A stretch of 64,000 nt of DNA, taken from assembly GCA_023374045.1 (NCBI GenBank), contig CM041779.1, forward strand, positions 144,585,485 through 144,649,484, given 5' to 3'. A program made the position numbers and the translations under genes. The notes beneath the pieces are model-generated. The model made no database searches. It was not told the DNA's origin and saw only the letters and a list, made by a program, of their open reading frames with translations. This document shows positions 6,350 through 49,025 of this stretch, one piece after another. How positions within the stretch are numbered: position 1 is the first letter of the stretch; each line of letters opens with the position of its first letter. Origin of the DNA: Limonium bicolor. Taxonomy: Eukaryota; Streptophyta; Magnoliopsida; Caryophyllales; Plumbaginaceae.

Positions 6350-6373
6350 AAGATAAATAAAAAAAGGAAGGGG

Positions 6374-13330: not shown

Positions 13331-13454
13331 ATTTTTACACCAATGATCATGTGACACCTATTAATGATTCTAGATATTCTAATGTTTAAATGTCCAAGCA
13401 GAAGTTGATTATATGAAAAAAAAACAACTAAGCACCTCAAACACATGCTGACCT

Positions 13455-22150: not shown

Positions 22151-22700
22151 ATGCCATTGTATTGTATGATGTATGACAGTAATGTGTATATCCATATATG
22201 ACTGTTTGGATTGGATGAATGATTATATAATCATGCATGCTGTTACAGTAGTTGTTATACCTGTAAAATGACAAGCATGAAATCAATCTAATATCAAGAT
22301 GGTTAAAAATGACAAGTGACCAATAGGGTCCAGATCCGGCATACTCAGCGTCTATCGCTGATACTACACTTATTGTGCAGGTTGCTGAACACGTTGAAGC
22401 CGAAGTGCGGGATTGGGTAGTTAGGACATTGTGAGATTTGGATTATGTTTAGATGCTCATAGTAGTTGTGCTTTTGATACCTAGATAGAAATGTAGATGG
22501 TATCTCGTTGTCACTGCGGATTGTATTCTTATGTTTAATTTTGTTAAGATGTTGTACTGCTACATCACTCGCATGGGCGAGTGGTGGCAAGTAACACCCA
22601 TGTGAGTGCTATTAATGTAATTACTTCCGCTGTGAGACGCCTTTAATTCCTGTTCACGTGAGCGACTATTACGTAATTGTTATGAGGGGTGTTACAAAAG

Positions 22701-22712
22701 TGGTATCAGAGC
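22701..22712 (+). promoter_or_regulatory. Primer-binding site, tRNA-iMet (LARD-2)
   Basis: TGGTATCAGAGC, four bases after the 5' LTR end GTGTTACA. The layout GGGGTGTTACA-AAAG-TGGTATCAGAGC is typical of chromovirus-type plant gypsy elements. Confidence 0.93.
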
Positions 22713-28004: not shown

Positions 28005-28016
28005 AAGGGGGGTAGA
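28005..28016 (+). promoter_or_regulatory. Polypurine tract (LARD-2)
   Basis: AAGGGGGGTAGA directly precedes the 3' LTR start (TTGAAATACCCC at 28017). This is the expected site for plus-strand DNA priming. Confidence 0.85.
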
Positions 28017-28415
28017 TTGAAATACCCCTACTTAATTAAACATGATTTAAATATATAATTTACTACATTAAGGTATGAACGAACGGTTAAATAGTAATAC
28101 GGTCACGCACTTATATACATACGTATGTATGCACGTATGTATAACGTTACCCTATTATAACGTTGTACACATAACTAGTAATGCGACATGATGATATAGT
28201 CGCATGGGTACTTGCAACCGAAATCATATAACTAAAACACGACAAATAAAATGGTTGTACCCGTATATGGGTATAGTTAAAAACGTGACATAACGAAATA
28301 GTAGTATATATATATGTACATATAACTACTAACGTGACATGTTAATACAAGTCACTTATATGCAAGAAATAGGCATAACAAGGCTGGAAAAATAAAATAA
28401 AAGAGCAACTATGCT

Positions 28416-28482
28416 CTAGCCAGGATTTGAACCCGAGACCCTTCGTAACAATCCCGAAACCTTAACCGATTGAGCCGCTGTC
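28416..28482 (-). other. tRNA-like segment in LARD-2 3' LTR
   Basis: Identical to 16381-16447 in the 5' LTR: A-box-like GGCTCAATCGGTTAAGG and B-box-like GGGTTCAAATCC on the minus strand. Its presence in both LTRs shows it was part of the element before insertion. Confidence 0.6.
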
Positions 28483-29884
28483 GAATTCAGTATTGTACAC
28501 TCACGAATTATATCAAGTAGCAAAGCTACCCACTTATTCCACACTGAACTACTACTCTACTACCGAACTGTCCCTAAACTCCAATTTCAACTACCGAACA
28601 GAACAAGTAAAGAATTACTCAACAGTGTGCTGTTCTTCCCCCATGCTGATGCATGTCTCGGAAGTAATACCCGACACCCTCTGTTCCACCAGTATGGGCA
28701 CTGCCTATTAAAGAAACTCAACCTTCTCAATTCCCTCTACATGCAACTCGGTCTTGGCATGCCCAGAAGCTCGTTGATACCCACTGTCCACTGGCGCAAG
28801 ATTCTGGAAAAATTCTGGAGTTAGTTGACACAGAACAGCTAGGTGAATGGGTAATCAACTTCTCTTCTCCATCCTCGTACTTCTGAGTCCGAAAGCTTCT
28901 ACTCCACTTCTAATTCTTCTTGATGCTTGCCCGGTGATGGGTGCTGCAATCCAGGAAATTTGAAACAGCACGGTCAGGAGGAAAACAGCAGGAAATCTCC
29001 CCATGCTCCCCTGATTTTCTTTTCACAAAACGGTAATGCCATTTCCCTCCATGTTTGTCTGTTCACCTTGCTCTATCAGTTTGTTTCTCTCTTGGTAAGC
29101 CTGAAACGATGTCACTCATGAAACCTGTACCTCTTGATTCCTGACTCAAGGTCTTTAACTCTCTTTTACATCTCTGAATGGGTGCTGTTCAGGCTCCTGA
29201 AAATCCGGAACAGATCAGTCCAGAAGACCATCAAGTATGATATCTAGAGATCCTGGAATGGAACAAGTCCTCTGCAAAAAAAAAAGGAACTTCTAAGGGT
29301 AAGACCATGAAACCAGGAAATTCTGGTTGAATAACTCTTTCATTCTTCTGTCCTCCTGTCCGAGATTCTCCAGTTGCTTAACTCATTTCCTCTTCAGGCG
29401 CTGCTTGACTCCGCCAGGAATTGTAACTCATGAAGAGTGTACCAAGATCCCATGCATGACAACTCAATTCTGTTTCAACAATAAGAAACACAACCAGGTA
29501 GATCTCCTAGCAGTTTACTCATGATTTGTTACCTGTGTTAACCGGCCTGCTCACTCGAGAGAAAATTTCCTCAGCTGCGCTCGAGTGACCAAGAAGTTGA
29601 AGTCGCATTGGCACCAAAGGATTAGTCAAAGAGGAACGGTTGAGACACTCAACTGGTGAGCTAACTCTAACCTGAAACTATTACCAGAAAACAAGACCAA
29701 ACGGTCAAGTTCAACTATTGAGTATTTTGAATGCAGTAAAGGTTGCTTCTTTTGTAGATTATTTATGAACTTAAATACAGCTGGTACACTACTAACATAC
29801 CTAGCTAAGTCATAAGCACGCTAGGGAAAACTAAGGAAAGGAGTTAGATCACAGAAACAAACAACAGGAGAGAGAGCTTGCATC

Positions 29885-32385
29885 AATGCATGACAGCAGT
29901 TTCAGTTTCCTTTTGGGTTCTGTATAAAATGTTTCAGAAACGTAGTCAGGTTGCTTAAGGGTTTGGTTTTGGGACTGTTCACGATTTAGATTTGATGATA
30001 TAGTTAGTTAGTAGGAACCAGATCCATTAATGAAACGGAAAAGACAGAATAAAATAGCAAAAGAGAAACCTGTAATAGTTCCTCAGTCTATCAGATTTTC
30101 AGTGTTTCAATTTATTCCTCAAGCTTCCTTCCACTTCGGTATTAAAGCATTTCAGAAGTTTTAACAGATTTGCCTTGGGGTTTTGGAGTTAAAACTGAGT
30201 TAAAACATGTAACTGAACAACTCAACCAACAGAAGAAAACAGGAGCTAGATTAGCTAGGAGAAAATGCAAAAGTTGCATATCAGTTTTGGGTCCCTGGGT
30301 GTTCTGTACAGACATGTCCAGTGGGGCATTCTTGGTTGCCTTGGGTTGTCTTAAAACAAACAAAGTGTTAAACCTTACAGCTAAGTAGACAGATGGTTTG
30401 GGCTAGAAAACAAAAAAAAAAAGAACAAACTGGTAAACCAGACAGAAAAGAGCCTGTCAGGTCCCTGGCTCGATTTATCCTAGTTTCAGAGTATGGATTT
30501 TGTTTTTCAGGAATGTTACCCAAGTAGTTCTGACCTGAGATGGGTTAAACACCTCGAATAAACATCAACTAAGCATTCAAGGAAATTTAGAAAGAATTAG
30601 AGTTAGGGTAGATTAAGAACAGGAAGGGCACCATGAGAAAGAAATGTAACAGAAAGGAAGACAGATAATAATTCCTGTTTGTCTGTTTGTATATCAGTTT
30701 CAGATTTTCTGTTTCTGTGGTGTAGGTAGCCTTAGTAACTCTAACTCAGTATCTTAAATTGGGGGAAGTATAAACTGTATTGAAACTCCTAACTGAGAGT
30801 AAATAAACTGGAAAAATTAAGGAATCAGGTGGCACGTTGCAGAGAGAATCCACCAGTTTCACATTCCTGTTTCTTCTTCTGTAACAACCTAGGCTAGTTT
30901 CTGTTTTAGGAATCCAGATTTCAGTAACACCGACAGTGTTGTCCTAATTCATCTGTAAACCTAGGAACCCCTAAACATCAAGATAATGATGAGAACCAAC
31001 TAATACCTTGGGGCTGAGATCAGAAGAAGAAGGAAAGAAAACTGGTGTAAGAAGGAACTCAAAAACCTGAAATTTTCACTTCTGTGTAATTGGTTTCCAG
31101 AAGCTTTGTAGATGCTAAATTGATAAGCTGAGTATCCTAAGAACTCTATAACACATTACATTAAGAGTGATGAGCTGGGGAAAAAGTTCAGGAACCAGGG
31201 GACACGAGACAAGGGAATCAGTCAACTTTACATGTCTGTTTTCGGTAACAGAATAGCCCAGCTTCTGAGTGGAGAGTTTTCTGAGAAATGTCCTGAATGA
31301 TTGAGGAATTGTTGTGAGGTAAAGTCAGAGTAGACCGTTAGCTGATTGGGTAACTAATTCGGAGGAAAAGGGAGTTAAATGAGTGAACTATAAGAGAAAC
31401 AGAAAAGTAGAGAAACACCAGTTTCAGATTTCAGTTTTATCCAGCTTCAGTTTCCTTTCCAGTTCAGTGGTTAATTATTTCTACATCTGTAACAAGCTGT
31501 TTTGGGTTGTTCTTAAATTTAAAGGCCTGATAAGATGTCAACTGAGTGGATACAACAGCTATGAAGGGTTGCAAATAAGTTTAGCAAACAGGCAGAGAGC
31601 AAACTAAGAGAAAGTGTTAGTTCCTGACTGTAGTTCAACTTCAGAAATTTCATGTTTCTGTATAACTCTGTTACAGAAGATAAAAGGGTTGCAATGGTTT
31701 GTTAAGAGTTTAATACTATACTGAGACACATAAATGAATCGTTAAGTAAGTGGGGGAAGGTTAAGAAATGATTTAGGTGACAGAAAATAAAACAACAGGA
31801 ATAAGTTGCAGCAGTGCCAATTTCATTTCAGGTTCTTTATGTCTTCTGTCTGAAGGACTTCCAGGGTGGTTAACCTTGATAAATTGGGTCTGTGTCAAAG
31901 ATATATGTTTGATAGCACACTTGACCAAGTGGGTAGACAACCCCTACGAAAGTAGCAATGAGATTAAAGAAACAGAAAGAAAGTAACAGGAAGGATAAAC
32001 AACAGTCCAGGAAACCAGTTTCTGTTTTGGTTTCAGTCTCAGAATTTGCCATCTCTGTATAACTAGGATGCAGGGAGTATAAGTGGATGGCATTGAGTGA
32101 TTAAAAGAGCTTAAAACCAAACTAACTCGTGAGACTGATATGTGAAGCATATGGAAACCGATCAGAAGACTGAGCAAGGGCTTGAAGAAAAGATACATGA
32201 ACAATGTTTCAGTTTATTCCAGAAGCTGAACTGTTTCTGTAAGTGAGCAGAACAGATTGTTTGTGAGTGTTGGAGAGAATTAATCTTGAACCTAAAATAC
32301 TTCTAAGAGGATGGATTAGACTGATACATTCATTAGGTATTTGGAAATCAACTTAATTACCAAACAGATACAAAAAAAAAGATAT
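29885..32385. repeat. Second copy of the ~190-bp degenerate array
   Basis: Carried by the 3' LTR. It matches 17850-20340 with small indels only. Differences between units within one LTR far exceed differences between the two LTRs, so the array is older than this insertion. Confidence 0.5.
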
Positions 32386-34745
32386 ACTACGAAGGCATGA
32401 ACTTCAGATTTCTGATGTCATGTTTTCTTGCTGTTCAATTAAGTTACAGTGAGTGGTTCAGTTGTAATGCAAACTTGGGTCTTCAATCTATAATTAATAT
32501 GGTGAGTTTGAGGTGTGAAAGGAAATTTGATGTACATATATACATATGTAACCAATAATTAAACAAGTGTGAAAAGACCTTAGGTCATATCTTACCACAA
32601 GGTTTCCGATTTTATAAAATAAATATCTACAATATATTATAAGTTATGTGGTAGTTCTGTGAGAGATGAAAGTATATAATAAAGGAGCTCAAATGTGACA
32701 CATGTGTATATTATTTTCGATACGCTCCTAAGTTGCCAAGCCACATGTAATAAAGTCTAGTGACACATAAAATATCGTACCGTATAACATTATAGAACAA
32801 ACGTAACACAAATAATATTATGTGGCTAAAGATGTAGTTATTCAAACTGTTATGCTAAACGCATACATACAAAGATAAACACGTATCAAGAAATAAAGTT
32901 ATACACTATAGTTAGAACGACATAAAATACTAAGGTTAGTATAGGACCTTGGTTTGATAAGTAAACCCTAGTGAAGTATCATAAGTGTATAACGTAACGT
33001 TTCATGCTCTAATGTAAACTGAGAATTAACTCACACAACGCGTAAGGAGTTATCAAATATTAACAACGATACTTTAACTAGTAACAAATGTTAAGTCTGG
33101 GGACATAGTACTAGGATTTCAAATATTGTTCGGGAATACCGAATTGTGCTGTCATGTGGATTGACGCTTAGTGTTCCTTGTATTACTAGATCGCAGTTCC
33201 GACGTACGCGCTCGAAAGCTCTAGTGGTCTGCACTGCACGAATCTAGACAACGGTGTACGGTATGTAATGGGATTTGATCCGAGTTGTCCTGAGGAATTC
33301 CTCGGGCTCGGATTTGTTTGATAAATAACTTGTGTGAATGTATGTATGTGGTGTATGTATGTGATGCATGTGTATGATGTGTAGTTATGTTCATTGCATT
33401 ATTTATTTATGCACGAACGTCCTACGGGACTAATACTACGTCGACTATAGATCGACTTATACAAAACTACATATGCGAAATGTGTGATTGTGACCACTGT
33501 TGCTTGACTTAATACGCTAAGTATTACAAGTACGTAGTTATAACCTAAGTAAAATACTTAGGAACGGGACACGACATTGTCGGTCTCTAGAGCTTTGACT
33601 CAAACGTGAATGTTACCTAGAATAATTCTAGGCATGCGTAAGACCCATAGGGCAGCCAACAAATTAAGTGATGTACTCCATAACAAAAATGTAACTGACT
33701 ATCTAACTAACAAAGCTAACAGTGGAGTGTAAATGAATGTGATGTTGTACCTTAATCCAGACAGTCACTGGCTGCTGGTCGCGCGTAGAGATCTCTTGGG
33801 ATATCCCGTATCGGGTTTTCCCTAGTTAAATCCTGATCGAGCCTAGATAGATCGTCAGGCGGAGTGTGCTACCGTTGGCACCAGGCCCTTGGCCACCTAA
33901 ATGGACGCCTTTACAAAGGCAAAGTGAATAAGTCCCAGAGTCTTCGGATGATCAGGGCAGTGAGCACCTTTGTGTGTACGTGGGACTACTGTCCAAGTGA
34001 ATATATTTCGGGTTGTCCTAACTGACGCCCGACTGTGCTAACCTAAACAAACAATATGTGAAGGCCCAGAGGGCCGAGTGATATACTATGTGATGACGTT
34101 AATATACGATGAATGAGTTCATACTATGTGATGATGTTAATAAACGATGAATGAGTTCATACTATGTGATGATGTTAATTTACGATGAATAAGTTCTCAA
34201 TGCCATTGTATTGTATGATGTATGACAGTAATGTGTATATCCATATATGACTGTTTGGATTGGATGAATGATTATATAATCATGCATGCTGTTACAGTAG
34301 TTGTTATACCTGTAAAATGACAAGCATGAAATCAATCTAATATCAAGATGGTTAAAAATGACAAGTGACCAATAGGGTCCAGATCCGGCATACTCAGCGT
34401 CTATCGCTGATACTACACTTATTGTGCAGGTTGCTGAACACGTTGAAGCCGAAGTGCGGGATTGGGTAGTTAGGACATTGTGAGATTTGGATTATGTTTA
34501 GATGCTCATAGTAGTTGTGCTTTTGATACCTAGATAGAAATGTAGATGGTATCTCGTTGTCACTGCGGATTGTATTCTTATGTTTAATTTTGTTAAGATG
34601 TTGTACTGCTACATCACTCGCATGGGCGAGTGGTGGCAAGTAACACCCATGTGAGTGCTATTAATGTAATTACTTCCGCTGTGAGACGCCTTTAATTCCT
34701 GTTCACGTGAGCGACTATTACGTAATTGTTATGAGGGGTGTTACA

Positions 34746-35922
34746 ATAACACCTTGAAAATCCCTCACTTCTACTCGGTTTCAGCACCTCCTTGGTGTCG
34801 GTTTTGGAGCTCTTGGCTGGCTGGCTGGCTTGCTCTACCTCTTAGCTCGAGTTTCTTTATGTTAGAAGATTTTTAGGGAAGTATATTGGTGTGATGGAGA
34901 ATGTCAGGTTGTGGGTGCTCTTATATAGGCAAGGAAACTGTTACTTAAGTTAAAGGAAAGTTTTCTTAAGGTTACACCTCTCATGACACCATCTCTTCTC
35001 CTATTGACTATCACTTTGGCTGAATATTTAAAGGTTATTTTGTGGATAATATTTCTAGGATGGAGGCAGCAGCAATGATGGGCTGAAACAAGCATTTATG
35101 AGCATTAAATGTGCAGTAATGTGGCCGGCCATTTAAGGCCATGTTTGGCATGATTTGGACACCTCCCCTAAGGCTGTGTTTGGCTAGGTGGTCTAAGTTT
35201 ACTTCATGGTGAAGAAAGATCAAGATAAATCTAGCTAAGTCCTTGTTCTTGGCAGCACTTATATGTGTAATTGCTTAAGTCATGTTTCTTCATGTGAGGG
35301 AAACCTAATATGTTTCTTAATGAGAGGGTTTCCTAAATTTTTCACACATACATTTCTTCATGAGTGGGTTTCCTTCCTAAGAGGGTTTCCTCTTGAGAGG
35401 GTTTCCTTTCTAAGGGGGTTTCGTTCCCGTGAGGGTTTCCTTCCTGGGGGGTTCCTTAAATTTTCACACCAGTGATCATGTGACACATATTAATTATTCA
35501 GGATATTCTAATATACAAATTTCCAATCAAAAGTTGATTATATGACAAAAATACCTATGCACCTCAAACACATGCTAACCTCCAAGTAGGTTGCCACCTC
35601 GTGCTTACCTTAACTAGGCCGCCACCTCGTGCTTATCTTAACTAGGTCACCACCTCGTGCTTACTTCGACTAGGTCACCACCTCGTGCTTAACAAGCTGT
35701 TTTTGGTGTATCTCAAGGAGAAAAGTAATTATGATGGAGTAAAACTAACTATGGGAGCATTTCGGCTATTAGGGTTTTACCGGGTCTCCTGAGGTTTCCA
35801 AGGTTTTCCATCTCTGGTTACTGTGGTTTCCTAGATCATTTCCGGGACTTTCGTTACTTAGGGGTTTTAGCATTTCCGAGACTTTCAGGAATTTAGGGTT
35901 CCCTCATATTTGGGGTATTTCA
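34746..35922 (-). repeat. LARD-1 5' LTR, proximal fragment
   Basis: This resumes the LTR after the insertion with the second ATAAC copy (34746-34750) and continues to the element end at 35922. It carries a TATA-like TATATAA on the minus strand (34927-34921) and the minisatellites at 35350-35455 and 35590-35692. It is followed by the GTATA duplication. Confidence 0.88.
34921..34927 (-). promoter_or_regulatory. TATA box in LARD-1 5' LTR
   Basis: The minus strand reads CCTATATAAGAGCACCC. This is the promoter-bearing LTR of LARD-1, but it is now separated from the LTR end and interior by the 18.8-kb insertion, so it can hardly drive a useful element RNA. Confidence 0.55.
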
Positions 35923-35983: not shown

Positions 35984-36745
35984 GGTTTAATAAATGCAAT
36001 TTCAAACAAATTACCTGATGCTAAGCATAGATGTTGTGCTTGAAATGTCTATGCTAATTTTAGAAGGAAATTTGGGGGCTTGTAGTATATATCTTATTTT
36101 TGGTCAATGACGAATGCAACCACTCCTAACATGTATGCTGATACGCTGAAAAAATTGAGAGAGTTTTACCCTAGAGCTGCGAATGATTTTGAGAGTAGAG
36201 ATCCAACTGAATGGTCCAAGGCATGGTTTAGTGTCAATAGTTGTTGTGATAGTGTTACGAACAACATCACTGAAGTGTGGAATGTGTCAATAATTGAGGC
36301 TAGAAGATTTCCAATTTTAGGTTTGTTGGAGCAATTTAGAGAAGCCCAATTTAAGAGAATGAATGCTATAAGGAAACTCTTTGATGAAAAGGATATAAAT
36401 GTTTGTCCTAGGATCTTGAAGTTTCTTGCTACAAAAGAAGAAGAGGCTGGAAAGTGGTCATGTTTATACACTGGAAGGGATGAGTATGAGGTGAAATGTA
36501 GTTCAAACTCGTTACATGATAAATATATTATAAGCATAGAGTCTAGAACATGCAGTTGCAGATCTTGGCAATTGAGTGGGATTCCTTGTGTTCACGTAAT
36601 TTGTGCAATTTGGGAAGTGAGGGACAAACAAGAAAACTATGTTAGTGACTGGAATAAGAAAGAGGCAAACATGATAGTCAATGCATTGAGATGCTCAATA
36701 GACCAAATGAATGGCCCAGGCAAAGGAAACCACAAGTTGAGTGTC
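35984..36745 (+). pseudogene. MULE transposase, C-terminal part with SWIM zinc finger
   Basis: After the intron occupied by LARD-1 the reading resumes with GLINAISNKLPDAKHRCC, a TGA at 36041-36043, NVYANFRRKFGG, then an open frame from 36107. The open frame contains YADTLKKLREFYPRAANDF and a SWIM zinc finger, CSCRSWQLSGIPCVHVIC (36551-36604, C-x-C-x(n)-C-x-H). It ends in NEW-type sequence QMNGPGKGNHKLSV, where a TRIM element interrupts it at 36746 (TSD GTGTC, 36741-36745). The stretch between VLSDKQK (11010) and GLINAI fits consecutive MULE exons. The continuation of the protein is found inverted at 45936-45560. The splice acceptor before GLINAI looks damaged (TTCGG instead of CAG). Confidence 0.87.
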
Positions 36746-37255
36746 TGTAACACCTCATATGAGCAACTGTCCAACAACCTAGATCCCAAGCCATCCGGGC
36801 TTGAAAACTAGCCACTTTAGGCCCCGAATCCTCACTTGGGCTGAAAAGTGGAAGGTCTGTTGTTGTAGTCAACCCATGTGTTTACATATAAGGAACTCAC
36901 AATACTACTCATATCCCGATGTGGGATGGGGTATTACATACTCCCCCACTCAAAGAATGTGACGTCCTCGTCGCAAGCCTAATATCCAAGTCCCATGGAC
37001 CTCCTCGGTAGGTGTCGGGTTACCCATCCCGACACAGTCCCGAGTCCGCTCTGATACCATTTGAAACACCCCATATGAGCAACTGTCCAACAACCTAGAT
37101 CCCAAGCCATCCGGGCTTGAAAACTAGCCACTTTAGGCCCCGAATTCTCACTTGGGCTGAAAAGTGGAAGGCCTGTTGTTGTAGTCAACCCATGTGTTTG
37201 CATATAAGGAACTCACAATACTACTCATATCCCGATGTGGGATGGGGGTATTACA
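36746..37255 (-). mobile_element. TRIM element, copy 1 (minus strand), with mismatched flanks
   Basis: Two ~194-bp LTRs (36746-36938 and 37062-37255) enclose a 123-bp interior. On the minus strand each LTR starts TGTAATACCCC and ends GGGGTGTTACA (the right copy ends GGGGTGTTTCA). A tRNA-iMet primer site TGGTATCAGAGC lies at 37059-37048, and a purine tract GAGTGGGGGAG at 36951-36941. No coding capacity. The left flank is GTGTC and the right flank AACGG, so there is no target duplication within this copy; each matches a flank of the second TRIM instead. Confidence 0.92.
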
Positions 37256-39065
37256 AACGGAGTCCAAACGAAGAATCTAGAGCCGGTCAAAATTCGCAAG
37301 TCAAATACACACGTCCGTGTGTTGTCCGTGTGTTGTCCTTGACTTGTCCGCATAACAAAGGGTGGACAGGGGTAGGACACAACACACGTCTGTGTGTTCT
37401 CCGTGTGTTGTCCTTGACTTGTCTGCATAACAAAGGGTGGACAGGGGTAGGACACAAACGTGTCCGCCCAACTTTACCCGGACGTGGCTTGTGTCCGCCC
37501 AACTTTACCCGGACAAGAGCAAATGTGTCCACCTAGAAATGGCTGGACACAAACGTGGACATGAGCCGTCCGCCTAGAAATGGCTGGACACAAACGTGGA
37601 CACGGGGAGGACGTGTGTAAATACAACGCAGATCCAGAAATTAACGCGACAGTTTTCTTCTTCGCCGACTGTCTTCCCCAAGTTGCTTCTTCCTTTGCGG
37701 CGCCTACAGACATGTCGAACTGCTTTTTCAGCAATATCAGGCGCCTGCCGACAGTTACTCACGCGGTGTTCCCTCTGTCTTCTTCCCCTTCCTTTCTTCT
37801 ATAAAACCCACGCTGCTCTGCTCAAATAAATCATCCCTTCCTGAATCCAAATTAGACTTAGACCACCGTTACAGACAATCGACCACATTTCCACACCTAC
37901 GATCCATTCCATCCTCTTATCTCCCACTTCTCCATTTTATTTTCATTCTTCATTCCACCACGAAGCAGAAGCAGTATAAGAAGAAGAGAAGAAAAGGGAG
38001 CTGGAGCAGAAGCGAATCGCAGTCCAGTCTCCGCCGGCAGTCTCCAAAATAATGGCTATCTCTGCTTTCTTTTTATTTCTGTTAATGTCTGAGTGATTTT
38101 ACTCGTATCCTAGGACGGGGTTTGACCCCAAATAATTCAGACTTATTATTAATACCAAGTTTGCTTATAAATATTTGTTTTGTCTCTCTAAATTATTAAA
38201 TGCTTAAGAACTGATCATTTTTATGCATTTACGGTTTCTCTTATTTCAATGATTTTGTAAATCTGAGAATAGACCACAAAGAAAGACAAACGTTAGATAT
38301 TATCTCCTTGATTAGCAGATAAAATCCATCGCTGTTATTAAAAGAATTCTTGCTTAATGCTAATTAATGATTTTAGACTTTTTCTGATTGTAAAAAGTCT
38401 ACTTAATTAATTTAGAGTTATCTTTATCTATGATTTAGGAAGGCCACAAGATAAATTCTTAAACAGACAAATAAGAGCAAATTAGGATTATAATTAATGT
38501 CTGTACTTAAATAAATATTTATCACCTGTTTCACTTATTAAACTTGTTTTAATTCCTTTCAGCAAATATTGTTAAATGCTTAGCGTGACAAACTACTGCA
38601 TTTATTTGGTAACTATCAACATATGATTTTGAGATAGTCAAGGTACCACAAAGGAATTAACCTTGGTATTTACACTCCGGATTGAGCAGGAAAATACTAA
38701 GGCTATTAATAAGAGTTCGTAACTGACAATTATTAACTCTAATAGACAATAAATATTTGAGACAGGATTATAAAATTGTTTAAGTAATTTAGGCAATTCC
38801 CCCTATCCTAGGATACCTTTTTCCATCCATTTACTTTATTTTACTGTTTTTATTATTTCTGCACTGATCCTAAAAATCAAGCTTGCCTCCGGCTAAACCC
38901 CAATTTACATTTTATGCACTTTTATTTATCTTTTTGTACATTTACTAAACTGGATAATTAATTAGACAGTTGCGAAGTCTCTGTGGATACGACCTTGTTG
39001 TACTACAAAGATTGGGTTCACTGCCCATAGTTAGCAAGATAGTTTAACTACTATTTTGCCCAACA
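37256..39065 (+). repeat. Inner element 5' LTR, distal fragment
   Basis: Begins with AACGG, the TRIM-made duplication, and matches 41483-43328 of the 3' LTR. It lacks a 38-bp stretch present in the 3' LTR at 41984-42021. It contains a ~94-bp tandem duplication (37304-37460) and two shorter repeats of CGCCTAGAAATGGCTGGA. The TATA box lies at 37800-37806, and the LTR ends CAACA at 39065. Confidence 0.9.
37800..37806 (+). promoter_or_regulatory. TATA box of the inner element 5' LTR
   Basis: TATAAAA within TTCTATAAAACCCACG, preceded by a pyrimidine-rich stretch. The same sequence occurs at 42061-42067 in the 3' LTR. Start of transcription expected ~30 bp downstream. Confidence 0.6.
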
Positions 39066-39071
39066 AGTTTT

Positions 39072-39089
39072 TGGCGCCGTTGCCGGGGA
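39072..39089 (+). promoter_or_regulatory. Primer-binding site of the inner element (tRNA-Asp type)
   Basis: TGGCGCCGTTGCCGGGGA, six bases after the LTR end CAACA. I recall this sequence as the primer site of Athila/Tat-type elements, complementary to Asp tRNA. Confidence 0.8.
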
Positions 39090-39198
39090 CTTCGGTTCAA
39101 CTATCTGGTTTATTATCTGTTTAGTTTTTTCTTTTATTTCCGTATTTACCCTTTTGTGTATAAATTTTTGTTTCTTTTTTTTAAGGTACTTAATTCTG

Positions 39199-40047
39199 AT
39201 GGATGATCACTACGATCAAGCAGGAGATTGGTATGGTTACCCCTATGGCGCAAAGGACTACAATCAATGGAGTGTCTGCCAAGAGTGTGGAGGAGACCAT
39301 GAAAGTTCCCATTGTCCTACGGTTGCAATAGAGAGAGACAACACCATTTTAAGGGAAATGATGGCAAATTTTACCTCAAAGTTTGAAAGTATCCAGCAAA
39401 GAACGCTAGATCAGATCGAACGCATGGAACAACCGCTTCAACAACTGAATGAAGTGGTTCATGAGGAGGAACAACATGTTGAGGACATAAGCTACTCTCC
39501 ACCTCCTCTCCTATTCGAATTAGAGAATCCATCACCAAACAACTATCAGCTTGATTATGGAGACAACCCCTCAGAAGAGAGTTTCTCTTTGGACTTCATG
39601 GAGTTTCCTCCCTCTGAAGTCCACTACTATTTCCCCTCCTTCTCCATGCTTTACCCAGAAGATGAGGGTAGATACATCCTCAACCTTGAGAAGGAGGAGA
39701 TACCGCCTCCCTCCGAGCCATCAGAAGAGAGTGCTATAATCAATTTCAAGGAGCCACTTCCCTCTGACGTTGATTACCATCAAGGCTCTTACCATAAGCC
39801 TCAACAACAAGAGGAGGATTTTTACATCTTCCAATTTGAGGAAGCAAAACCAATCACACCTGGTCTCCTGTTAGAACTACGCTACCGACACTACCTCCTC
39901 AAACACCAGGTTTTGTGGAGTATTCATTTTCCTATTATATTTGTCGAAGTAACGTTTTGTTTTGATCCAGGTGGTTTGCTTTTAATTACTGCCAACCTCG
40001 TTTTCCTGGCAGAGCTGTTGTCTACTTATATTTTTGATCCAGGATAA
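39199..40047 (+). CDS. Gag-like remnant protein of the inner element, acidic, with one zinc-knuckle-like motif
   Basis: 282 codons from ATG at 39199 (MDDHYDQAGDWYGYP); an in-frame ATG at 39154 exists but lies in leader-like sequence. Near residue 30 is CQECGGDHESSHC (C-x2-C-x4-H-x4-C), the form of the Athila gag zinc knuckle. A short coiled-coil-like helix follows (NFTSKFESIQQRTLDQIERM), then a long acidic Pro/Glu/Ser-rich part with repeated EEE, PPP and FEE motifs and a hydrophobic C-terminal ~60 residues (LLKHQVLWSIHFPIIF). No gag matrix or capsid block and no protease or polymerase. The same C-terminal sequence recurs in the outer element at 43550-43670. It may be a truncated gag retained in a non-autonomous lineage; function unknown. 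Confidence 0.6.
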   Translation: MDDHYDQAGDWYGYPYGAKDYNQWSVCQECGGDHESSHCPTVAIERDNTILREMMANFTSKFESIQQRTLDQIERMEQPLQQLNEVVHEEEQHVEDISYSPPPLLFELENPSPNNYQLDYGDNPSEESFSLDFMEFPPSEVHYYFPSFSMLYPEDEGRYILNLEKEEIPPPSEPSEESAIINFKEPLPSDVDYHQGSYHKPQQQEEDFYIFQFEEAKPITPGLLLELRYRHYLLKHQVLWSIHFPIIFVEVTFCFDPGGLLLITANLVFLAELLSTYIFDPG

Positions 40048-41270
40048 CGAAGCGGGCGTCTAGCCAAAGACGTTAAAGAAGGGCAGCTTCCCGGGAGGCA
40101 ACCCGGATGAACTTTTATTTTATTTGCTTTTATGCTCTTTTAATTTTCAGGTTCTCTTTAAATTTTGTTTTTGCTAAACCTTAACCCCGTTTGTAGTATG
40201 GTTGCTTCTAGTGTCTTATGCAGGTGCAACTTCATGTCTACACTGCAACCAAGCTACGCTACTTGAGGCTGAAGCTCAAGTGTGGGGGAACTCCTATAAC
40301 ACTAGCAAAAATAATCTCAGGGGAGTACCAGTTTCTTTAATTACGCTTTTATTTAAATAAAAACTGCAGAGGAGCGTTTATGTGCTTAAATGATTATTCG
40401 TGACTTTGTGTTCTCTCTATTTTATCTGATGACCGAAAAGGTCTTCTGAAACCTTCCCTTGTTTTTCTGGTGGACAATGAGGACATTGTTCAATTTAAGT
40501 ATGGGGGAGTGTGCCCTTTTCAGTGATATTTTATGCTTAAATGCTTAATCTCTCTGCTAATCTTGCGTTTGTCCAAATTCAATATCGTGGACCCTTTATA
40601 TGTGGGTTGTTCTCTTTAAGAATAAATACTGTTATGAATTGTGGGATAAATGGTATAAATGGTACAAATTTTAAAATTTTGATTACTTTTGAGGAGCATT
40701 TTTATGCGGTGTGACCAAATGATCTGAAATTGATGAATTTTTATTACTCAGGGGTTCCTTCTATCTTCTTTCTTAGGGATTGCTAAGGGGTGCTTCTCTG
40801 TCAAAAAAAATATTTATACAAAAAAATAAATAAGGGACTTGCGAGACACCATTGGTAACCAACAAAGATAGTTGAGTGTTCTTAAATACAAAGGCTTAAT
40901 GCCTACATATTATTTTCTCATCTCTTATGCAAAAGTGAAACAAATGCATAATTCTATTTTTCCTTTTGTTTTCTCCTCAATGCCCATTCTTGAGAGAAGT
41001 TGACCATGGTAAAAGTTCTCAAAGTCACCTTAACTAAGAAGCATTGAAGTACTCCGGATCATACCCCGAAACTCTAATTTTTATTTTTACCCTGAGTACA
41101 CCTGTGCCACCAGCAGTTGATGGATCACACTCCTCGAAAAGTTTAAAGATCATGTACTGTTCACTTGTTTATCCTACCCTTCATAATAATATTTGTTAAT
41201 ATTGAGCATTCCCTACTTGCTTGGGTACATGGTTTTGCTTGAGGACAAGCAAAAGGTAAGTGTGGGGGTG
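40048..41270 (+). other. Inner element 3' non-coding interior with three purine-tract-like motifs
   Basis: Starts with GAAGCGGGCGTCTAGCCAAAG and CGGGAGGCAACCCGG, a conserved block also present at 43760-43815 in the outer element. Three AAGTRTGGGGG motifs lie at 40278-40288, 40497-40507 and 41258-41268; only the last abuts the 3' LTR and acts as the polypurine tract. Each is preceded by a GAGG-rich stretch; in the last this is GAGGACAAGC. Nothing coding was seen. Confidence 0.75.
41258..41270 (+). promoter_or_regulatory. Polypurine tract of the inner element
   Basis: AAGTGTGGGGGTG immediately before the LTR start TGATAAGTG at 41271, preceded by GAGGACAAGCAAAAGGT. Typical of plant Athila/Tat-type elements. 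Confidence 0.85.
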
Positions 41271-43328
41271 TGATAAGTGTCTAAATGAGCATGTTTTATG
41301 GGTGTATTTCATATATTATATCAGCACTTTTCTGCTCATTTCTCACTTATCGTATGTTTTTCCTCTAGTTTATGTTTTATTGGTTATCTCACAAATTTAT
41401 TGGTTAAAACATGAGGAAAAACCAAGCTAGGAGCAAAGTACACGAAGAGACGAACGCATAGACGCAAACGGCTCGAAAAACGGAGTCCAAACGAAGAATC
41501 TAGAGCCGGTCAAAATTCACAAGTCAAATACACACGTCCGTGTGTTGTCCGTGTGTTGTCCTTGACTTGTCCGCATAACAAAGGGTGGACAGGGGTAGGA
41601 CACAACACACGTCCATGTGTTGTCCGTGTGTTGTCCTTGACTTGTCCGCATAACAAAGGTGGACAGGGGTAGGACACAAACGTATCCGCCCAACTTTACC
41701 CGGACGTGGCTTGTGTCCGCCCAACTTTACCCGGACAAGAGCAAATGTGTCCGCCTAGAAATGGCTGGACACAAACGTGGACATGAGCTGTCCGCCTAGA
41801 AATGGCTGGAAACAAACGTGGACACGGGGAGGACGTGTGTAAATACAACGCAGATCCAGAAATTAACGCGACAGTTTTCTTCTTCGCCGACTGTCTTCCC
41901 CAAGTTGCTTCTTCCTTTGCGGCGCCTACAGACATGTCGAACTGCTTCTTCAACAATATCAGGCGCCTGCCGACAGTTACTCACACATTCTGCCGCCCCC
42001 AATCCATTACTGAAATTGCTCACGCGGTGTTCCCTCTGTCTTCTTCCCCTTCCTTTCTTCTATAAAACCCACGCTGCTCTGCTCAAATAAATCATCCCTT
42101 CCTGAATCCAAATTAGACTTAGACCACCGTTACAGACAATCGACCACATTTTCACACCTACGATCCATTCTATCCTCTTATCTCCCACTTCTCCATTTTA
42201 TTTTCATTCTTCATTCCACCACGAAGCAGAAGCAGTATAAGAAGAAGAGAAGAAAAGGGAGCTGGAGCAGAAGCGAATCGCAGTCCAGTCTCCGCCGGCA
42301 GTCTCCAAAATAATGGCTATCTCTGCTTTCTTTTTATTTCTGTTAATGTCTGAGTGATTTTACTCGTATCCTAGGACGGGGTTTGACCCCAAATAATTCA
42401 GACTTATTATTAATACCAAGTTTGCTTATAAATATTTGTTTTGTCTCTCTAAATTATTAAATGCTTAAGAACTGATCATTTTTATGCATTTACGGTTTCT
42501 CTTATTTCAATGATTTTGTAAATATGAGAATAGACCACAAAGAAAGACAAACGTTAGATATTATCTCCTTGATTAGCAGATAAAATCCATCGCTGTTATT
42601 AAAAGAATTCTTGCTTAATGCTAATGAATGATTTTAGACTTTTTCTGATTGTAAAATGTCTACTGAATTAATTAAGAGTTGTCCTTATCTATGATTTAGG
42701 AAGGCCACAAGATAAATTCTTAAACAGACAAATAAGAGCAAATTAGGATTATAATTAATGTCTGTACTTAAATAAATATTTATCACCTGTTTCACTTATT
42801 AAACTTGTTTTAATTCCTTTCAGCAAATATTGTTAAATGCTTAGCGTGGCAAACTACTGCATTTATTTGGTAACTATCAACATATGATTTTGAGATAGTC
42901 AAGGTACCACAAAGGAATTAACCTTGGTATTTACACTCCGGATTGAGCAGGAAAATACTAAGGCTATTAATAAGAGTTCGTAACTGACAATTATTAACTC
43001 TAATAGACAATAAATATTTGAGACAGGATTATAAAATTGTTTAAGTAATTTAGGCAATTCCCCCGCTATCCTAGGATACATTTTTCCATCCATTTACTTT
43101 ATTTTACTGTTTTTATTATTTCTGCACTGATCCTAAAAATCAAGCTTGCCTCCGGCTAAACCCCAATTTACATTTTATGCACTTTTATTTATCTTTTTGT
43201 ACATTTACTAAACTGGATAATTAATTAGACAGTTGCGAAGTCTCTGTGGATACGACCTTGTTGTACTACAAAGATTGGGTTCACTGCCCATAGTTAGCAA
43301 GATAGTTTAACTACTATTTTGCCCAACA
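41271..43328 (+). repeat. Inner element 3' LTR (complete)
   Basis: 2058 bp from TGATAAGTG to CCCAACA. It is complete, unlike the 5' LTR, which is cut by TRIM-2/TRIM-1 and the inversion. It differs from the 5' LTR by a 38-bp extra stretch (41984-42021), a few substitutions and small indels. TATA box at 42061-42067. Confidence 0.93.
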
Positions 43329-44130
43329 AGAGGCACCAGTTGTGGACAATTTCATAGAGGATGAAGAGATTGAAGCGTCTACCGTAATTGTTTGCCAGAA
43401 CGAATTTTCTGTTGAGCCTCACCAACCGGAAGAGGATGCTTATATCCTCGGATCTGAGGAGAAAATCCCACCACCAGTTCGTCAGCAATTTCAATCTTGC
43501 CTCCAGGAGCCTCAACAACAGGAGGAGGACGTTTAAGTCCTCAAATTTGAGGAAGAAGAATCATCATCACCTGGTCTTCTGATAGAACAACGTTACCGGC
43601 AATATCTCCTCAAACACCAGGTTTTGTGGAGTATTTACTTTCCTATTTTATTTGCCGAAGTAACGCTTTGTGTTTGATCTAGGTGGTTTGCTTATAATTG
43701 TTGCCCACTTCGTTTTCCCGACGAAGCCGTTGTCTACTTTTACTTTTGATCCGGGATAACGAAGCGGGAGTCTAGCCAAAGACTATAAAGACGGGCAGCT
43801 TACTGGGAGGCAACCTAGTGGTTAAATTTATGTTTTTGTTTTCTGGTTTTATTTTTGTTTTTCTTTCACTTAGAAGCGGCAATGGTGTATGTGCTTCTAA
43901 TGCAACGCTTTCAGCGTTATATGGTAGTTTTGTGAGTATGTGCAGGTGAAACTCTTTATGGTGTTTGATGTTCTCCAAGGCTGGACACTTGCTTGAACGC
44001 AAGTGTGAGGAACGATGCTACCCCCATTGTTTAAGCTTAAGTGTGAGGAAAGGAACCTTCCTCAATGGTCTCGTGATCTTGGATAGAAGGCCCAACGCCA
44101 ATACAAGGATAAAGAGAAAAGTATGGGGGA
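43329..44130 (+). pseudogene. Outer Athila/Tat-like element: C-terminal gag-like remnant and 3' interior
   Basis: The frame EAPVVDNFIEDEEIEAST through QQQEEDV stops at a TAA (43534-43536) and continues in frame as VLKFEEEESSSPGLLIEQRY and LLKHQVLWSIYFPILFAEVT. This parallels the C-terminal part of the protein at 39199-40047. It is the downstream half of the frame at 47255-46671 (minus strand), split by the inner element and then inverted. The conserved block GAAGCGGGAGTCTAGCCAAAG and GGGAGGCAACC follows at 43760-43815. A purine tract AGTATGGGGGA lies at 44120-44130. Confidence 0.7.
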
Positions 44131-45546
44131 TGAAAACAATTGTGCAAAAAATGGATAATTATGCAAAGAAAAGAAAAGTTCTTAATGCTGAATGTTTGTA
44201 ATTTTCTTATTTTGATCATGAGTGTGTGGTGTTGAAAGGTATTGCGGAATATGGCATTACTTTATGCATATATATGTACATGTACGTGGCTCACGCATAG
44301 GATTATCAATTTGCATACAACATGCAATCTTATTCACGTGCCGAAGTTCAGCACTATTCTATGCAACAACACATGGTTAATTGATGATTAATCATTATGG
44401 AATCACGACAGTGACGAGCTACATATTATACACTTGATGTGAAGTTGATAAATAACCACATGCACTCATGGAAGCTTATTGTTTACGCTGCAATTCATTC
44501 ACGGTACATATCATTGTGAAGATAAGCAACACTTTATTAATAGAATTTTGCTGGCTGCTACTATAAAACTGAGGAGAATTAGGGCTATAGAGAGGATACG
44601 CCCAGCCCCAGAGGTTTAACGCCTCTCTTCATCCTTCATACACCACCACCACCACAGTTCATACACCAACAACCACACATCCGTATTCCACCATTGTTGC
44701 ACCGACGTGAAGACGAAATCGGAGCAGGGAAACGGAGGCAACTTGCTAACTGGAGTTTTCTCTACCCTTTCTCTTATTTTGTGTAATGTCGTTCTTTGTT
44801 ATTTCTGTTACTTTTAGAGACATGTTAGCGTAGTTAGTTTAGCTCCCCGGATTGGGGTGGCAAACCGGATCTTTATATTTATTTTGTAATCTTTTCACTA
44901 TTTCATTAATGCAGTAGTTTAATTTCTGTTCTTCATGCGCTTTAATTCTCTGATCAATTATTAAAGCTATCTTTGTAGTTTTCTAATCAACACGCGAGAG
45001 CTAAGATAGATAACAAGACATAGGAAGTTAAACCTGATTAGCGACTAGAAGTGTTATCCCGCCTATAGGTTAATCGGTCTGAAATAGAAACTGTTCTTTA
45101 TGCGATTAGTTGTGTCCGGATTAGAGCATTAGTCTGCTGCTAGTTCTAGCAACTGGTTAGGATTCGTTAGATTTAGTCGTTAACGAATTAATTATAGTTT
45201 CTAAGTTTGTTGCAAAATTAAGGAAGAGTTTATTAATAGACTAGAAAGTGCAGGTTTGCAGAACAATCCGGGGTGCTTTCTTATATTTAGAGTTTTAATC
45301 TTTATTTATTTACTCAGTTTATTTTAATTGTTTTGGTATTTTATTATTTTATATTGAGTCAGTAATTTAGTTAAATAGAGAAAACCCTAAAAAATTGACA
45401 TTTTCCTGTTTCCTTAGTTTAGTTTCTCAGTTAGTTAATAAATTTTCAACTAATTGAACGAGGTCCCTGAGATCGGCAACACCCACTTAATTCACTATTC
45501 CGCAAAACAATAGGTACACTGCCCATGTAGATGACTAGCAGTAACA
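44131..45546 (+). repeat. Outer element 3' LTR (inverted with the segment)
   Basis: From about 44298 on it matches, in opposite orientation, 49025-47770. The first ~165 bp (TGAAAACAATTGTG...) do not match the start of the other LTR (TGATAAATGCGAAAT at 54988 on the minus strand) apart from GTGGCTCAC-CATA just before the shared part. A TATA-like CTATAAAACTG lies at 44562-44572. The end is taken as CAGTAACA at 45546. No target duplication was found against the flank at 54989. Confidence 0.75.
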
Positions 45547-45559
45547 TTAGAGCTAGCTT

Positions 45560-45936
45560 GGCTTGCATCCAAATAAATAGAAATATGGCTGGAAAATATA
45601 TTTGTGCTCCCCGGCATCAATAGATCTTTGTCCTCTTCCTCGACCCCCATGTCCTCCACTGGTATTTTTACCACTTAATGCCTAATATAATCAATCACAC
45701 AACGTCATTTGTAAGACAAAAGACTAAATAAAATTACAATACAACATTGAAACATACCCTTTCCTTCATTGTTAGTGATGAAGCAACATTAGAGCACTTC
45801 AATTTGTTGTGTCCAGAAATTCCACATCTTCTACAAACTTGTAGTTGTCCTTTTCTAGATACCTTTAAATTCTTAACAGGTTCACCCAACTCGCTTCTTC
45901 TCTGTCTCGGCCTCCCTTGCCAAATCTTTAATGGTG
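45560..45936 (-). pseudogene. MULE transposase C-terminus with zinc knuckle (inverted fragment)
   Basis: On the minus strand the frame reads PPLKIWQGRPRQRRSEL, then VCRRCGISGHNKLKCSN, a CCHC zinc knuckle (C-x2-C-x4-H-x4-C). These are the standard last blocks of SWIM-type MULE transposases, after the SWIM finger. A donor-like GTATGT follows TMKER. A second piece after TATATTAG reads ALSGKNTSGGHGGRGRGQRS, a Gly/Arg-rich tail. The fragment begins exactly at TRIM-2, and its first bases GTGTC duplicate the last bases of the plus-strand MULE part at 36745. It therefore belongs to the same gene, turned over. A one-base frame difference remains at the join. Confidence 0.85.
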
Positions 45937-45941
45937 GACAC

Positions 45942-46452
45942 TGTAATACCCCCATCCCACATCGGGATATAAGTAGTATTGTGAGTTCCTTATATGTAAA
46001 CACATGGGTTGACTACAACAACAGGCCTTCCACTCTTAAGCCCAAGTTAGGATTGAGGGCCTAAAGTGGCTAGTTTTCAAGCCTGGATGGTTTAAGAGCT
46101 AGGTTGTTGGACAGTTACCCATATGGGGTGTTACAAATGGTATCAGAGCGGACTCGGGACCGTGTCGGGATGGGCAACCCGACACCTACCGAGGAGGTCC
46201 ATGGGACTTGGATATTAGGCTTGCGACGAGGACGTCGCGTTCTTTGAGTGGGGGAGTATGTAATACCCCCATCCCACATCGGGATATAAGTAGTATTGTG
46301 AGTTCCTTATATGTAAACACATGGGTTGACTACAACAACAGGCCTTCCACTTTTAAGCCCAAGTTAGGATTGAGGGCCTAAAGTGGCTAGTTTTCAAGCC
46401 TGGATGGTTTAAGAGCTAGGTTGTTGGACAGTTACCCATATGGGGTGTTACA
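45942..46452 (+). mobile_element. TRIM element, copy 2 (plus strand), with mismatched flanks
   Basis: LTRs 45942-46135 and 46259-46452 (194 bp each, almost identical) start TGTAATACCCC and end GGGGTGTTACA. The interior is 123 bp with primer site TGGTATCAGAGC at 46138-46149 and purine tract GAGTGGGGGAG at 46246-46256. It is the same family as 36746-37255 but in the opposite orientation. Flanks GACAC and CCGTT do not match each other, only those of the other copy. Non-coding. Confidence 0.93.
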
Positions 46453-46665
46453 CCGTTTTTCGAGCCGTTTGCGTCTATGCGTTTGTCTCTTCGTGTACTT
46501 TGCTCCTAGCTTGGTTTTTCCTCATGTTTTAACCAATAAATTTGTGAGATAACCAATAAAACATAAACTAGAGGAAAAACATACGATAAGTGAGAAATGA
46601 GCAGAAAAGTGCTGATATAATATATGAAATACACCCATAAAACATGCTCATTTAGACACTTATCA
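46453..46665 (-). repeat. Inner element 5' LTR, first 213 bp (left outside the inversion)
   Basis: On the minus strand this reads TGATAAGTGTCTAAATGAGC onward to GGCTCGAAAAACGG, matching 41271-41483 of the 3' LTR. It is followed at 46666-46670 by CCTCT, the reverse complement of the AGAGG duplication. It was separated from its continuation (37256 on) by TRIM insertion and inversion. Confidence 0.92.
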
Positions 46666-46670
46666 CCTCT

Positions 46671-47745
46671 ACCGGCTCACGGATAGGTGCAGGAAAAATA
46701 TCTTTGAATACTAGTTACTCCTCATGTGTTGGGGCTGGAGAGGGAGGGGGAACACAAATTGTTAAATATTTTCTCCACATCTTCTTCATATAACAGCTTC
46801 CTGATAGGTTTCTCCATCTCTTCAGCAGAACTCGTAGCCTCAAAAGTATCTGGCTCGAATCGATCTTCACTCCTTGGAGTCACCACTGGAATCTCTTCTA
46901 GCAGCTCAGCCTAACTCAAGAGAAATTTGTCTAGCCCCTGTGTAGATTGTTGTTTGTTCTGATTGAAATAATAGTATCCCAACTGATCTTCTTTGTACTG
47001 CGTAGAAGTCTGCTTAACCTCCCACCAATACGGTTCTCGAAAAGATTGAGGCTGTGGTGGTTGGTAGTAACTTTGCCGCATGTTCTGATTGAGAATATGA
47101 TATCCCAGCTGATCTTCATTGTACTGCGGCTTATTCTGCTGAACTTCCCACCAGTAAGGTTCTCGATTAGATTGCTGAGGTGGTTGGTAATTCTCAACCA
47201 ATCTTTGATAAGAAGATATCTCCTCCTGCATACGCTTCAATTCCACTTCTGCCATCTATCTTCTCACCTCATCCTTGCCGCTCTTTAGCGTCAAAAAATT
47301 AGCCTATCAAAAACAAAAATAAAAAGCAAAAGTACAACAAAACTAGAAATAGAAAAGAAGCCAAAAAACAAAATTAACTAAATATAATAACAAAGAAAAA
47401 CAAAATACAATTAAAAGAGAATTGCTAAAATAAATAACAAATAAATAAAATGAAATAAAAAACAAAAAATAAATAATAAATAAAAACAAAAATAATAAAC
47501 AAAGAATAAATAAGAAAAAAAATGAAAATATAAAACAAGAGCTACGCAAATCAAATGAAATGAACAAAACTGTATGCTACATAATGAAATTAAACACTTA
47601 TCTAGAAGTTAAATAAATACGTCCTGATTAAAACAACTAAAACGAAATTAATGAACTAATTAAAAAACTAAATAGATAAGTAATAAAAAACAATACAAAA
47701 ATCTCAAATAAATTAAATAAAACTGTTAATTAACCGTGTCAGAGG
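46671..47745 (-). pseudogene. Outer Athila/Tat-like element: interior and N-terminal gag-like remnant
   Basis: On the minus strand, from the primer site (47763-47746) there is ~450 bp of A/T-rich leader. An open frame 47255-46911 follows (MAEVELKRMQEEISSYQRLV). It contains two tandem ~43-residue repeats with REPYWWEVQQNKPQYNEDQL and REPYWWEVKQTSTQYKEDQL. After a stop at 46911 the same frame continues AELLEEIPVVTPRSEDRFEP to about 46740. The frame runs into the AGAGG insertion site of the inner element, and its downstream half is at 43329. No known domain; Gln/Tyr-rich. Confidence 0.6.
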
Positions 47746-47763
47746 TCCCCGTCAACAGCGCCA
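47746..47763 (-). promoter_or_regulatory. Primer-binding site of the outer element
   Basis: The minus strand reads TGGCGCTGTTGACGGGGA, a two-base variant of the inner element's site. It lies six bases after the LTR end TGCTACA (47770). It fixes the outer element's original orientation as minus. Confidence 0.78.
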
Positions 47764-47769
47764 AAAACT

Positions 47770-49025
47770 TGTAGCAGAAATATGTGACTATCTCTACCTA
47801 GGCAGTGTACCTATCGTTTTGTGGAATAATGAATTAAGTAGGGGTTGTCGATCTCAGAGACCTCGTTCAATTAATTGACAATTTATTAACTAACTGAGAA
47901 ACTAAAGTAACGAAACAGGAAAATGTCACTTTTTTAGGGCTTTCTCAATTTAACTAAATTACTGACTCAATAGAAAAATAATAAAATACCAAAACAATTA
48001 AAATAAGCTGAGTAAATAAATAAAGGTTAAAACTCTAAATATAAGGAAGCACCCCGGATTGTTCTACTAATCTTCAGTTTCTAATCTATTAGTAAACTCT
48101 TCTCTAATTCTGCAATAAACTTGGAAACTATAATTAATTCGTCAACGACTAAGTCTAATGAATCCTAACCAGTAGCTAGAACTAGCAGCAGACTAATGCT
48201 CTAATCTGGACACAACTAATCGCATAAAGAGCAGTTTCTATTTGAGACCGATTAACCTATAGGCGGGATCACGCTTCTAGTCGTTAATCAGGTTTAACTC
48301 CCTATATATCTTGTTATCTATCTCAGCTCTTGCATGTTGATTAGAAAACTACAAAATAACTTTAATAATTGATCAGAGAATTAAAGCACATGAAGAACTG
48401 AAATTAAACTACTGCATTAATGAAAAATTGAAAAGATTACAAAATAAATATAAAGATCTGGTTTGCTACCCCAATTCGGGGAGCTAAACTAACTACGCTA
48501 ACATGTCTCTAAAAATAATAGAAATAACAAAGAACGATATTAAATAAAATATAAGAAAGGGTAGAGAAAACTCCAGTTAGCAAGTTACTTTCGTTTCCCA
48601 GCTTCGATTCAGTCTTCACGCCGGTGCAACAATGGTGGAATATGGATGTGTGGTTGTTGATGGATGAACTGTAGTGGTGGTGTGAAGGATTGAAGAGATG
48701 CGCTAAGCCTCTAGGGCTGGGCGTATCATCTCCGTAGCCCTAATTCTCCTTAGTTTTATAGCAGCCAGCAAAATTCTATTAATAAAGTGCTGTGTTTTAT
48801 CTTCACAATGATATGTACCGTGAATGAAGTGCAGCGTAAACAATAAGCTTCCGTGAGTGCATGTGGTTATTTATCAACTCCACATCACGTGAATAATATG
48901 TAGCTCATCACTGCCGTGATTCCATGATGATTAATCATCAATTAACCATGTGTTGTTGCATAGAATAGTGCTGAACTTCGACACGTGAATAAGATTGCAT
49001 GTTGTATGTAAATTGATAATCTTAT
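47770..49025 (-). repeat. Outer element 5' LTR, main fragment
   Basis: Matches the reverse complement of 44298-45546. It contains CTATAAAACTAAGG (TATA-like, minus strand, about 48763-48750). It is interrupted at 49025, where a 5.8-kb unit inserted with duplication CTTAT (49021-49025). The first ~148 bp of the LTR are found beyond that unit at 54841-54988. Confidence 0.88.

Follow-up and report, generated by a model that had tools for sequence, protein, structure and literature searches.

The window analysed here, a 64-kb stretch of the Limonium bicolor genome (C4:144585485-144649484, on a 340-Mb contig of an assembly of 2.92 Gb in 2686 contigs), contains two terminal-repeat retrotransposons in miniature (TRIMs), T1 and T2, and the sequence as assembled was confirmed to carry a real 8.7-kb inversion between them (37256..45941, in positions of the window), with breakpoints at the ends of the two elements. 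T1 (36746..37255, minus strand, 510 bp) and T2 (45942..46452, plus strand, 511 bp) lie in opposite orientation, and the junctions of the inversion sit exactly at their inward-facing 5' ends. An original prediction, made from the letters alone, had described two oppositely oriented TRIMs with unlike 5-bp flanks that pair only crosswise, a segment whose flipping restores both target-site duplications and rejoins a Mutator-like element (MULE) and a nested long terminal repeat (LTR) element, and recombination between the TRIMs as the cause. Its structural claims were all borne out. The causal claim stood in part: the inversion and its breakpoints pass every structural test that was run, whereas recombination itself is left unproven by T1 and T2 being non-chimeric.

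The four flanks were read directly on the plus strand. T1 is bordered by GTGTC on its outer side (36741..36745, the left duplication copy of site A and the reverse complement of 45937-45941) and by AACGG on its inner side (37256..37260, one copy of site B), and T2 by GACAC (45937..45941, the second copy of site A, inverted) and CCGTT (46453..46457, the second copy of site B, inverted). The T2 flanks, when reverse-complemented, equal the T1 flanks exactly, and the 5-bp matches exist crosswise only; given the 5-mer frequencies of the window, two such matches would arise by chance with a probability of about 1.9e-6. The T1 3' end and the T2 5' end have GTGTC in common, and the T1 5' end and the T2 3' end have AACGG. 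Flipping the segment 37256-45941 restores the GTGTC and AACGG duplications together.

Paralogous empty sites of the same genome lend support to the flipped arrangement as the old order. Site B is empty in the intact copy b of the LTR of the nested element, which reads GCTCGAAAAACGGAGTCCAAACG with a single AACGG (41479-41483) and no TRIM. Site A was examined by separate searches of the host genome with the left 400 bp and the right 300 bp of the MULE flank, which gave 25 and 15 other matches, respectively. All 15 right-flank matches adjoin a left-flank match on the same strand (14 base-exactly, one with 5 bp unaligned), and the 10 remaining matches of the left flank, out of 25, are diverged or partial and lack a counterpart for the right flank. 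Of the 16 places hit by the right MULE flank, the window alone has the two halves split and opposed. Six of the 15 paralogs were read, and all six are empty at site A, with a single GTGTC and 87.5-90.6% identity over about 200 columns; when the as-assembled order is aligned to these six, the alignment stops at the break. The same-genome paralogs show that, when undisturbed, the MULE runs unbroken through site A and the LTR through site B.

The flip also repairs structures that are interrupted in the present order. The MULE is a pseudogene whose SWIM part (36086..36745, plus strand; Pfam SWIM PF04434, E 2.9e-8, and homologues) lies left of the site-A break and whose zinc-knuckle part (45690..45941, minus strand, downstream bound approximate) lies past it, and flipping puts the two into a single frame that is continuous at the rejoined site. 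A Silene latifolia protein aligns across the rejoined MULE (34% over 277 columns), and three partial MULE homologues likewise cross the joint, with gaps; a separate frame change is found upstream of the TRIM site. The nested LTR element becomes normal again on flipping, with LTR copy b (41271..43328, plus strand), the internal region (39066..41270, plus strand) and LTR copy a rebuilt from two parts, namely a 1.8-kb part in the inversion (37261..39065, plus strand) and a 213-bp part outside it (46453..46665, minus strand, 99% to the start of copy b). Its own target-site duplication is AGAGG within the inversion (43329..43333, plus strand) and CCTCT, the inverted form of AGAGG, beyond it (46666..46670, plus strand). 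The internal region starts with a TGGCGCCGTTGCCGGGGA-type primer-binding site (PBS), whose tRNA assignment is presumed. One further pair of repeats, absent from the original prediction, belongs to an older outer LTR-type element: a 1.24-kb repeat in the inversion (44297..45531, minus strand) is 91% identical to a partner beyond it (47793..49025, plus strand, with a PBS-like sequence alongside at about 47745-47770), and the two, now inverted, become direct upon flipping. Clean LTR ends and a duplication were sought for this pair and none were found, so it gives weaker support for the flip.

T1 and T2 have the structure of complete elements. The LTRs of T1 occupy 37062-37255 (5', inner) and 36746-36938 (3', outer) on the minus strand, and those of T2 occupy 45942-46135 (5') and 46259-46452 (3') on the plus strand. 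In element orientation, both start with TGTAATACC and finish with GTTACA; a primer-binding-like TGGTATCAGAGC, which we take to be the PBS for initiator-Met tRNA, follows 2 bp past the 5' LTR (37038-37059, minus strand, in T1; 46138-46159, plus strand, in T2), and a polypurine tract (PPT), GAGTGGGGGAGTA, stands before the 3' LTR. The internal region of 123 bp has no coding capacity. Total lengths of 510 and 511 bp and LTRs of 193-194 bp fall within the limits for TRIMs (total below 1000 bp, LTRs of about 100-350 bp) given in the accessible part of PMC3532108. T1 and T2, assigned to subfamilies alpha and beta, are 93.2% identical over 511 alignment columns. The LTR pair of T1 is 5 substitutions and one gap apart and that of T2 a single substitution, and LTRs of T1 differ from those of T2 in 15-16 columns. 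No match to the exact TRIM patterns was found in collections of viral contigs and genome contigs, and tRNA and Rfam scans of the 64-kb window gave no match.

The window also holds an 18.8-kb LTR element (15983-34746; 6.7-kb LTRs 99.5% identical, duplication ATAAC) that has the PBS TGGTATCAGAGC and ends, TGAAATACCCC...GGGGTGTTACA, that resemble TRIM ends. Its region (11000-36000) contains no open frame longer than 132 aa, and the element splits the right copy of a 2.7-kb direct repeat that is about 86-87% identical (11046-13750 versus 14369-15982 plus 34744-35922).

The TRIM family was sampled elsewhere in the 2.92-Gb genome, where first-look candidates numbered 2655 for the T1 query and 2290 for the T2 query and the best 40 of each were scored. 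The sample comprises all other scored places for both queries, except three T2-like places already in the set, and thus 39 T1-like and 36 T2-like loci; because only the best 40 were scored, it is biased toward close relatives. Exact 5-bp duplications flank 28 of the 39 T1-like and 31 of the 36 T2-like copies, with one mismatch in 3 and 1 and unlike flanks in 8 and 4, respectively. Matched-duplication copies differ between their LTRs by a mean of 1.4 (range 0-6; 27 of 28 measured) in the T1-like set and 1.7 (range 0-9; 28 of 31 measured) in the T2-like set, so the LTR differences of T1 (5) and T2 (1) are ordinary for the family. Three of the 12 unlike-flank copies look like multi-LTR arrays (L020, L075 and L097; overlapping matches or an internal-region flank), L087 and L091 are a single insertion seen twice, L019 has an odd 3' end, and L003 and L017 combine unlike flanks with near-identical LTRs, as do L015, L029 and L037. 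L035 (C7:128439520-128440280) has a beta 5' half, an alpha 3' half and the unlike flanks GTGTC/TAGAC, and no partner was found for it over a distance of about 20 kb. As repeats of the T1/T2 pattern, L029 and L037 were rejected because their targets are locally continuous, and L015 because it is a composite instead. For L003, L015, L029 and L037 non-chimerism is uninformative, since only 0-2 substitutions separate their LTRs from the LTRs of other copies. L005 (C1:206953951-206957466) was rejected as a second copy of site A: it has 12 bp in common with the T1 outer flank and then nothing, probably by chance.

For the Galileo inversion 2z3, the criterion in the available text of PMC2775673 combines exchanged duplications with chimeric copies. 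T1 and T2 were examined for such mixing at two sets of sites. Their LTRs vary at 19 columns, of which 7 are single-copy changes and 12 are two-versus-two. Diagnostic sites of the subfamilies, defined as having one state in 90% or more of the 12 alpha and 16 beta reference copies (chosen by us among the matched-duplication copies, 12 of 28 and 16 of 31), number 11. The outcome weighs against an exchange between the two TRIMs on several counts: all 12 two-versus-two sites group by element and none shows the chimeric pattern; T1 is alpha and T2 is beta at all 11 diagnostic sites; and the terminal identical runs in which an exchange would leave no mark make up 5-8% of exchange positions, according to how long a stretch of homology is required. 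The family, moreover, looks sparse (the 2655 first-look candidates in 2.92 Gb), and a close inverted pair would be uncommon. The same test reveals L035, as a positive control, to be a chimera (beta at the first 6 of 6 sites on the 5' side, alpha at the last 5 of 5 on the 3' side), and T1 and T2 are therefore not chimeric. None of the 12 sites contradicts a crossover placed at element positions 1-29 or 495-511; at any other position, 1 to 12 of them do. The permissive stretch of the 5' LTR is 37227..37255 (minus strand) in T1, and the matching identical run in T2 is 45942..45970 (plus strand). The sequence comparison thus leaves recombination between the TRIMs partly supported and its mechanism unproven, as exchange in the terminal 29 or 16 bp would be traceless. 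Mid-element crossover without later homogenisation of both LTR pairs is ruled out by the unmixed LTR and family sites. With homogenisation, it is retained as a sub-case because, by the prediction in the available text of PMC7251063, up to 25% of plant LTR pairs may have undergone gene conversion; here, two long conversion tracts would be required. Transposition of the TRIM-8.7 kb-TRIM segment as one composite unit is ruled out by its unlike outer flanks, GTGTC and CCGTT.

On balance, the inversion probably arose by reciprocal ectopic exchange between T1 and T2, either at their extreme ends or in mid-element followed by LTR conversion; that neither TRIM is mixed restricts the exchange to the ends unless conversion is invoked. 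Under this scheme T1 would have resided in the MULE at site A (GTGTC), T2 would have inserted at site B (AACGG) in an LTR of the young nested retroelement, and reciprocal exchange between the two would have flipped the 8.7-kb segment. The exchange would have been resolved in the 29 identical bp with which the 5' LTRs begin or, as a less fitting option, in the 16 bp that close the 3' LTRs; alternatively, a mid-element exchange would have been followed by LTR-to-LTR gene conversion in both TRIMs. Recombination does occur in the family, as seen in the chimera L035 with its unlike flanks and in the multi-LTR arrays L020, L075 and L097. The order of ages suits exchange at the 5' ends: T2, with an LTR divergence K of 0.005, is younger than the nested LTR in which it would lie (0.012), and T1 (0.027) looks older and would occupy site A, which imposes no age limit. 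Assumed substitution rates of 7e-9 to 1.3e-8 per site per year would date T2 to about 0.2-0.4 million years and the nested element to 0.5-0.9 million years, figures that depend on few substitutions. The inversion is probably of young age and could be polymorphic; if site B already held T2, the inversion is younger than T2, and the old order may persist in relatives. The argument from age is weak because about one fourth of nested elements exceed their host element in LTR divergence, according to the accessible part of PMC7251063.

LTR elements integrate from cDNA, and the duplications could also have been exchanged at that step, although we consider this possible rather than probable. Two TRIM cDNAs, alpha (T1) and beta (T2), would have been present together and the segment flipped upon insertion, with one complex joining the T1 3' and T2 5' ends at site A, another joining the T1 5' and T2 3' ends at site B, and every cDNA bridging both sites, 8.7 kb apart. 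Such crosswise integration predicts exchanged duplications with two unmixed elements, as observed; the ends of T1 and T2 share duplications as joint integration expects, and a post-insertion crossover gives the same pattern. Joint use of two cDNAs is seemingly found elsewhere in the genome at L015 (L046-L049, C8:122243000-122282999), where a single duplication, CTTCC, is shared between a 9.5-kb LTR element, at its 5' end, and a TRIM, at its 3' end; the inner ends are fused via TA, the dinucleotide preceding the TRIM 3' LTR, and the empty site is paralogous, about 9.4 kb off. The arrangement TACA-TA-TRIM start occurs at six places in the genome (L015 and L104, L105, L106, L107 and L108). TA-scarred TRIM-TRIM joints, which favour the same scenario, are head to tail in L104 and L105 and head to head in L106 and L108, and upstream of L107 there is neither a TRIM nor an LTR of the L015 type. 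Each pair, L104/L105 and L106/L108, may be duplicates of one event, and the TA-joined junctions look as if cDNA ends had been ligated. Nevertheless, crosswise integration requires simultaneous insertions, both younger than the nested LTR. The LTR substitutions of T1 and T2 stand at 5:1 (two-sided p about 0.22, not significant), and the probability that T1 would have gained at least 5 at the age of the nested LTR is about 0.086, also not significant; the unequal divergence mildly favours recombination. Moreover, a second two-site case was not seen, with no second TRIM within about 20 kb of L003, L015, L029, L035 and L037. To our knowledge, crosswise integration has not been described in LTR elements, and a literature search for it, which says little, found no described case.

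Two further explanations leave the TRIMs without an active part. Misassembly is a well-known hazard at inverted repeats of 0.5 kb, and the segment could have been placed backwards via the similar TRIMs. However, T1 and T2 are 93% identical and unmixed, and a false join would have to fall within 29 bp (5') or 16 bp (3') of both. In addition, the assembly keeps apart a 6.7-kb repeat pair that is 99.5% identical inside the window, which has an N count of 0 and belongs to the 340-Mb contig; the absence of N and the resolved pair point to a long-read assembly. Misassembly is accordingly an unlikely source of the inverted order, and little weight is given to it. Less weight still goes to breakage with non-homologous joining that chanced on the TRIM ends, which would be a most improbable coincidence: it would leave the elements unmixed, as they are, but both junctions are base-exact at element ends and keep full 5-bp flanks, without loss or filler. 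Ectopic exchange between T1 and T2 is kept as the preferred account.

Elsewhere in the window, a degraded LINE lies at 2268-7915 on the minus strand, with DUF4283/zinc-knuckle, endonuclease/reverse transcriptase and RNase H parts, and its middle part shares about 40% identity with the best-scoring relatives. A 22-bp tandem array of about 24 copies, with two frames open, occupies 57098-57639.

The locus demonstrates that exchanged duplications alone leave the mechanism of an inversion unsettled, as a base-exact inversion is found here with two unmixed, distinguishable elements, and the true chimera L035 of the same family provides the contrast in the same genome. It offers a concrete, young and testable case for distinguishing post-insertion recombination from rearrangement at LTR-element integration in plants. 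Should crosswise integration prove true, half-kilobase non-coding LTR elements would be direct rearranging agents at insertion and would represent an LTR-element counterpart to the hybrid-end transposition of DNA transposons; fused LTR-TRIM composites such as L015 would then represent this same event, the other two ends having been ligated to each other.

Among known systems, the closest is Galileo inversion 2z3 of Drosophila buzzatii which, as described in the accessible portion of PMC2775673, likewise has transposable element copies in opposite orientation at its breakpoints, exchanged duplications and a recoverable original order. The Galileo copies are chimeric in that account, with repeats about 6% divergent within a copy and more than 99% identical between copies, whereas T1 and T2 show the reverse, their LTRs differing by 0.5-3% within and about 8% between elements. 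Galileo is, furthermore, a DNA transposon, whereas T1 and T2 are LTR elements. In size, LTR length, PBS, PPT and lack of coding sequence, T1 and T2 resemble Wukong of maize (PMC4528315) and PbTRIM of ants (PMC3532108), and multi-LTR copies occur in both, as far as the available text of these papers extends, as well as here (L020, L075 and L097). The same portions of PMC4528315 and PMC3532108 describe no sequenced inversion with exchanged duplications, the latter stating the possibility only. No title naming a TRIM inversion with exchanged duplications was found in searches of an open-access collection, most subscription papers lying outside the search, and a search for 'exchanged TSD' (target-site duplication) returned Drosophila papers only. 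Hybrid element insertion and reversed-ends transposition, as presented in the available part of PMC2775673, resemble crosswise integration in that two elements cooperate through their ends to rearrange the chromosome, but they operate on DNA transposon copies that are already chromosomal. The hybrid insertion described there leaves two identical copies, whereas T1 and T2 differ by 7%.

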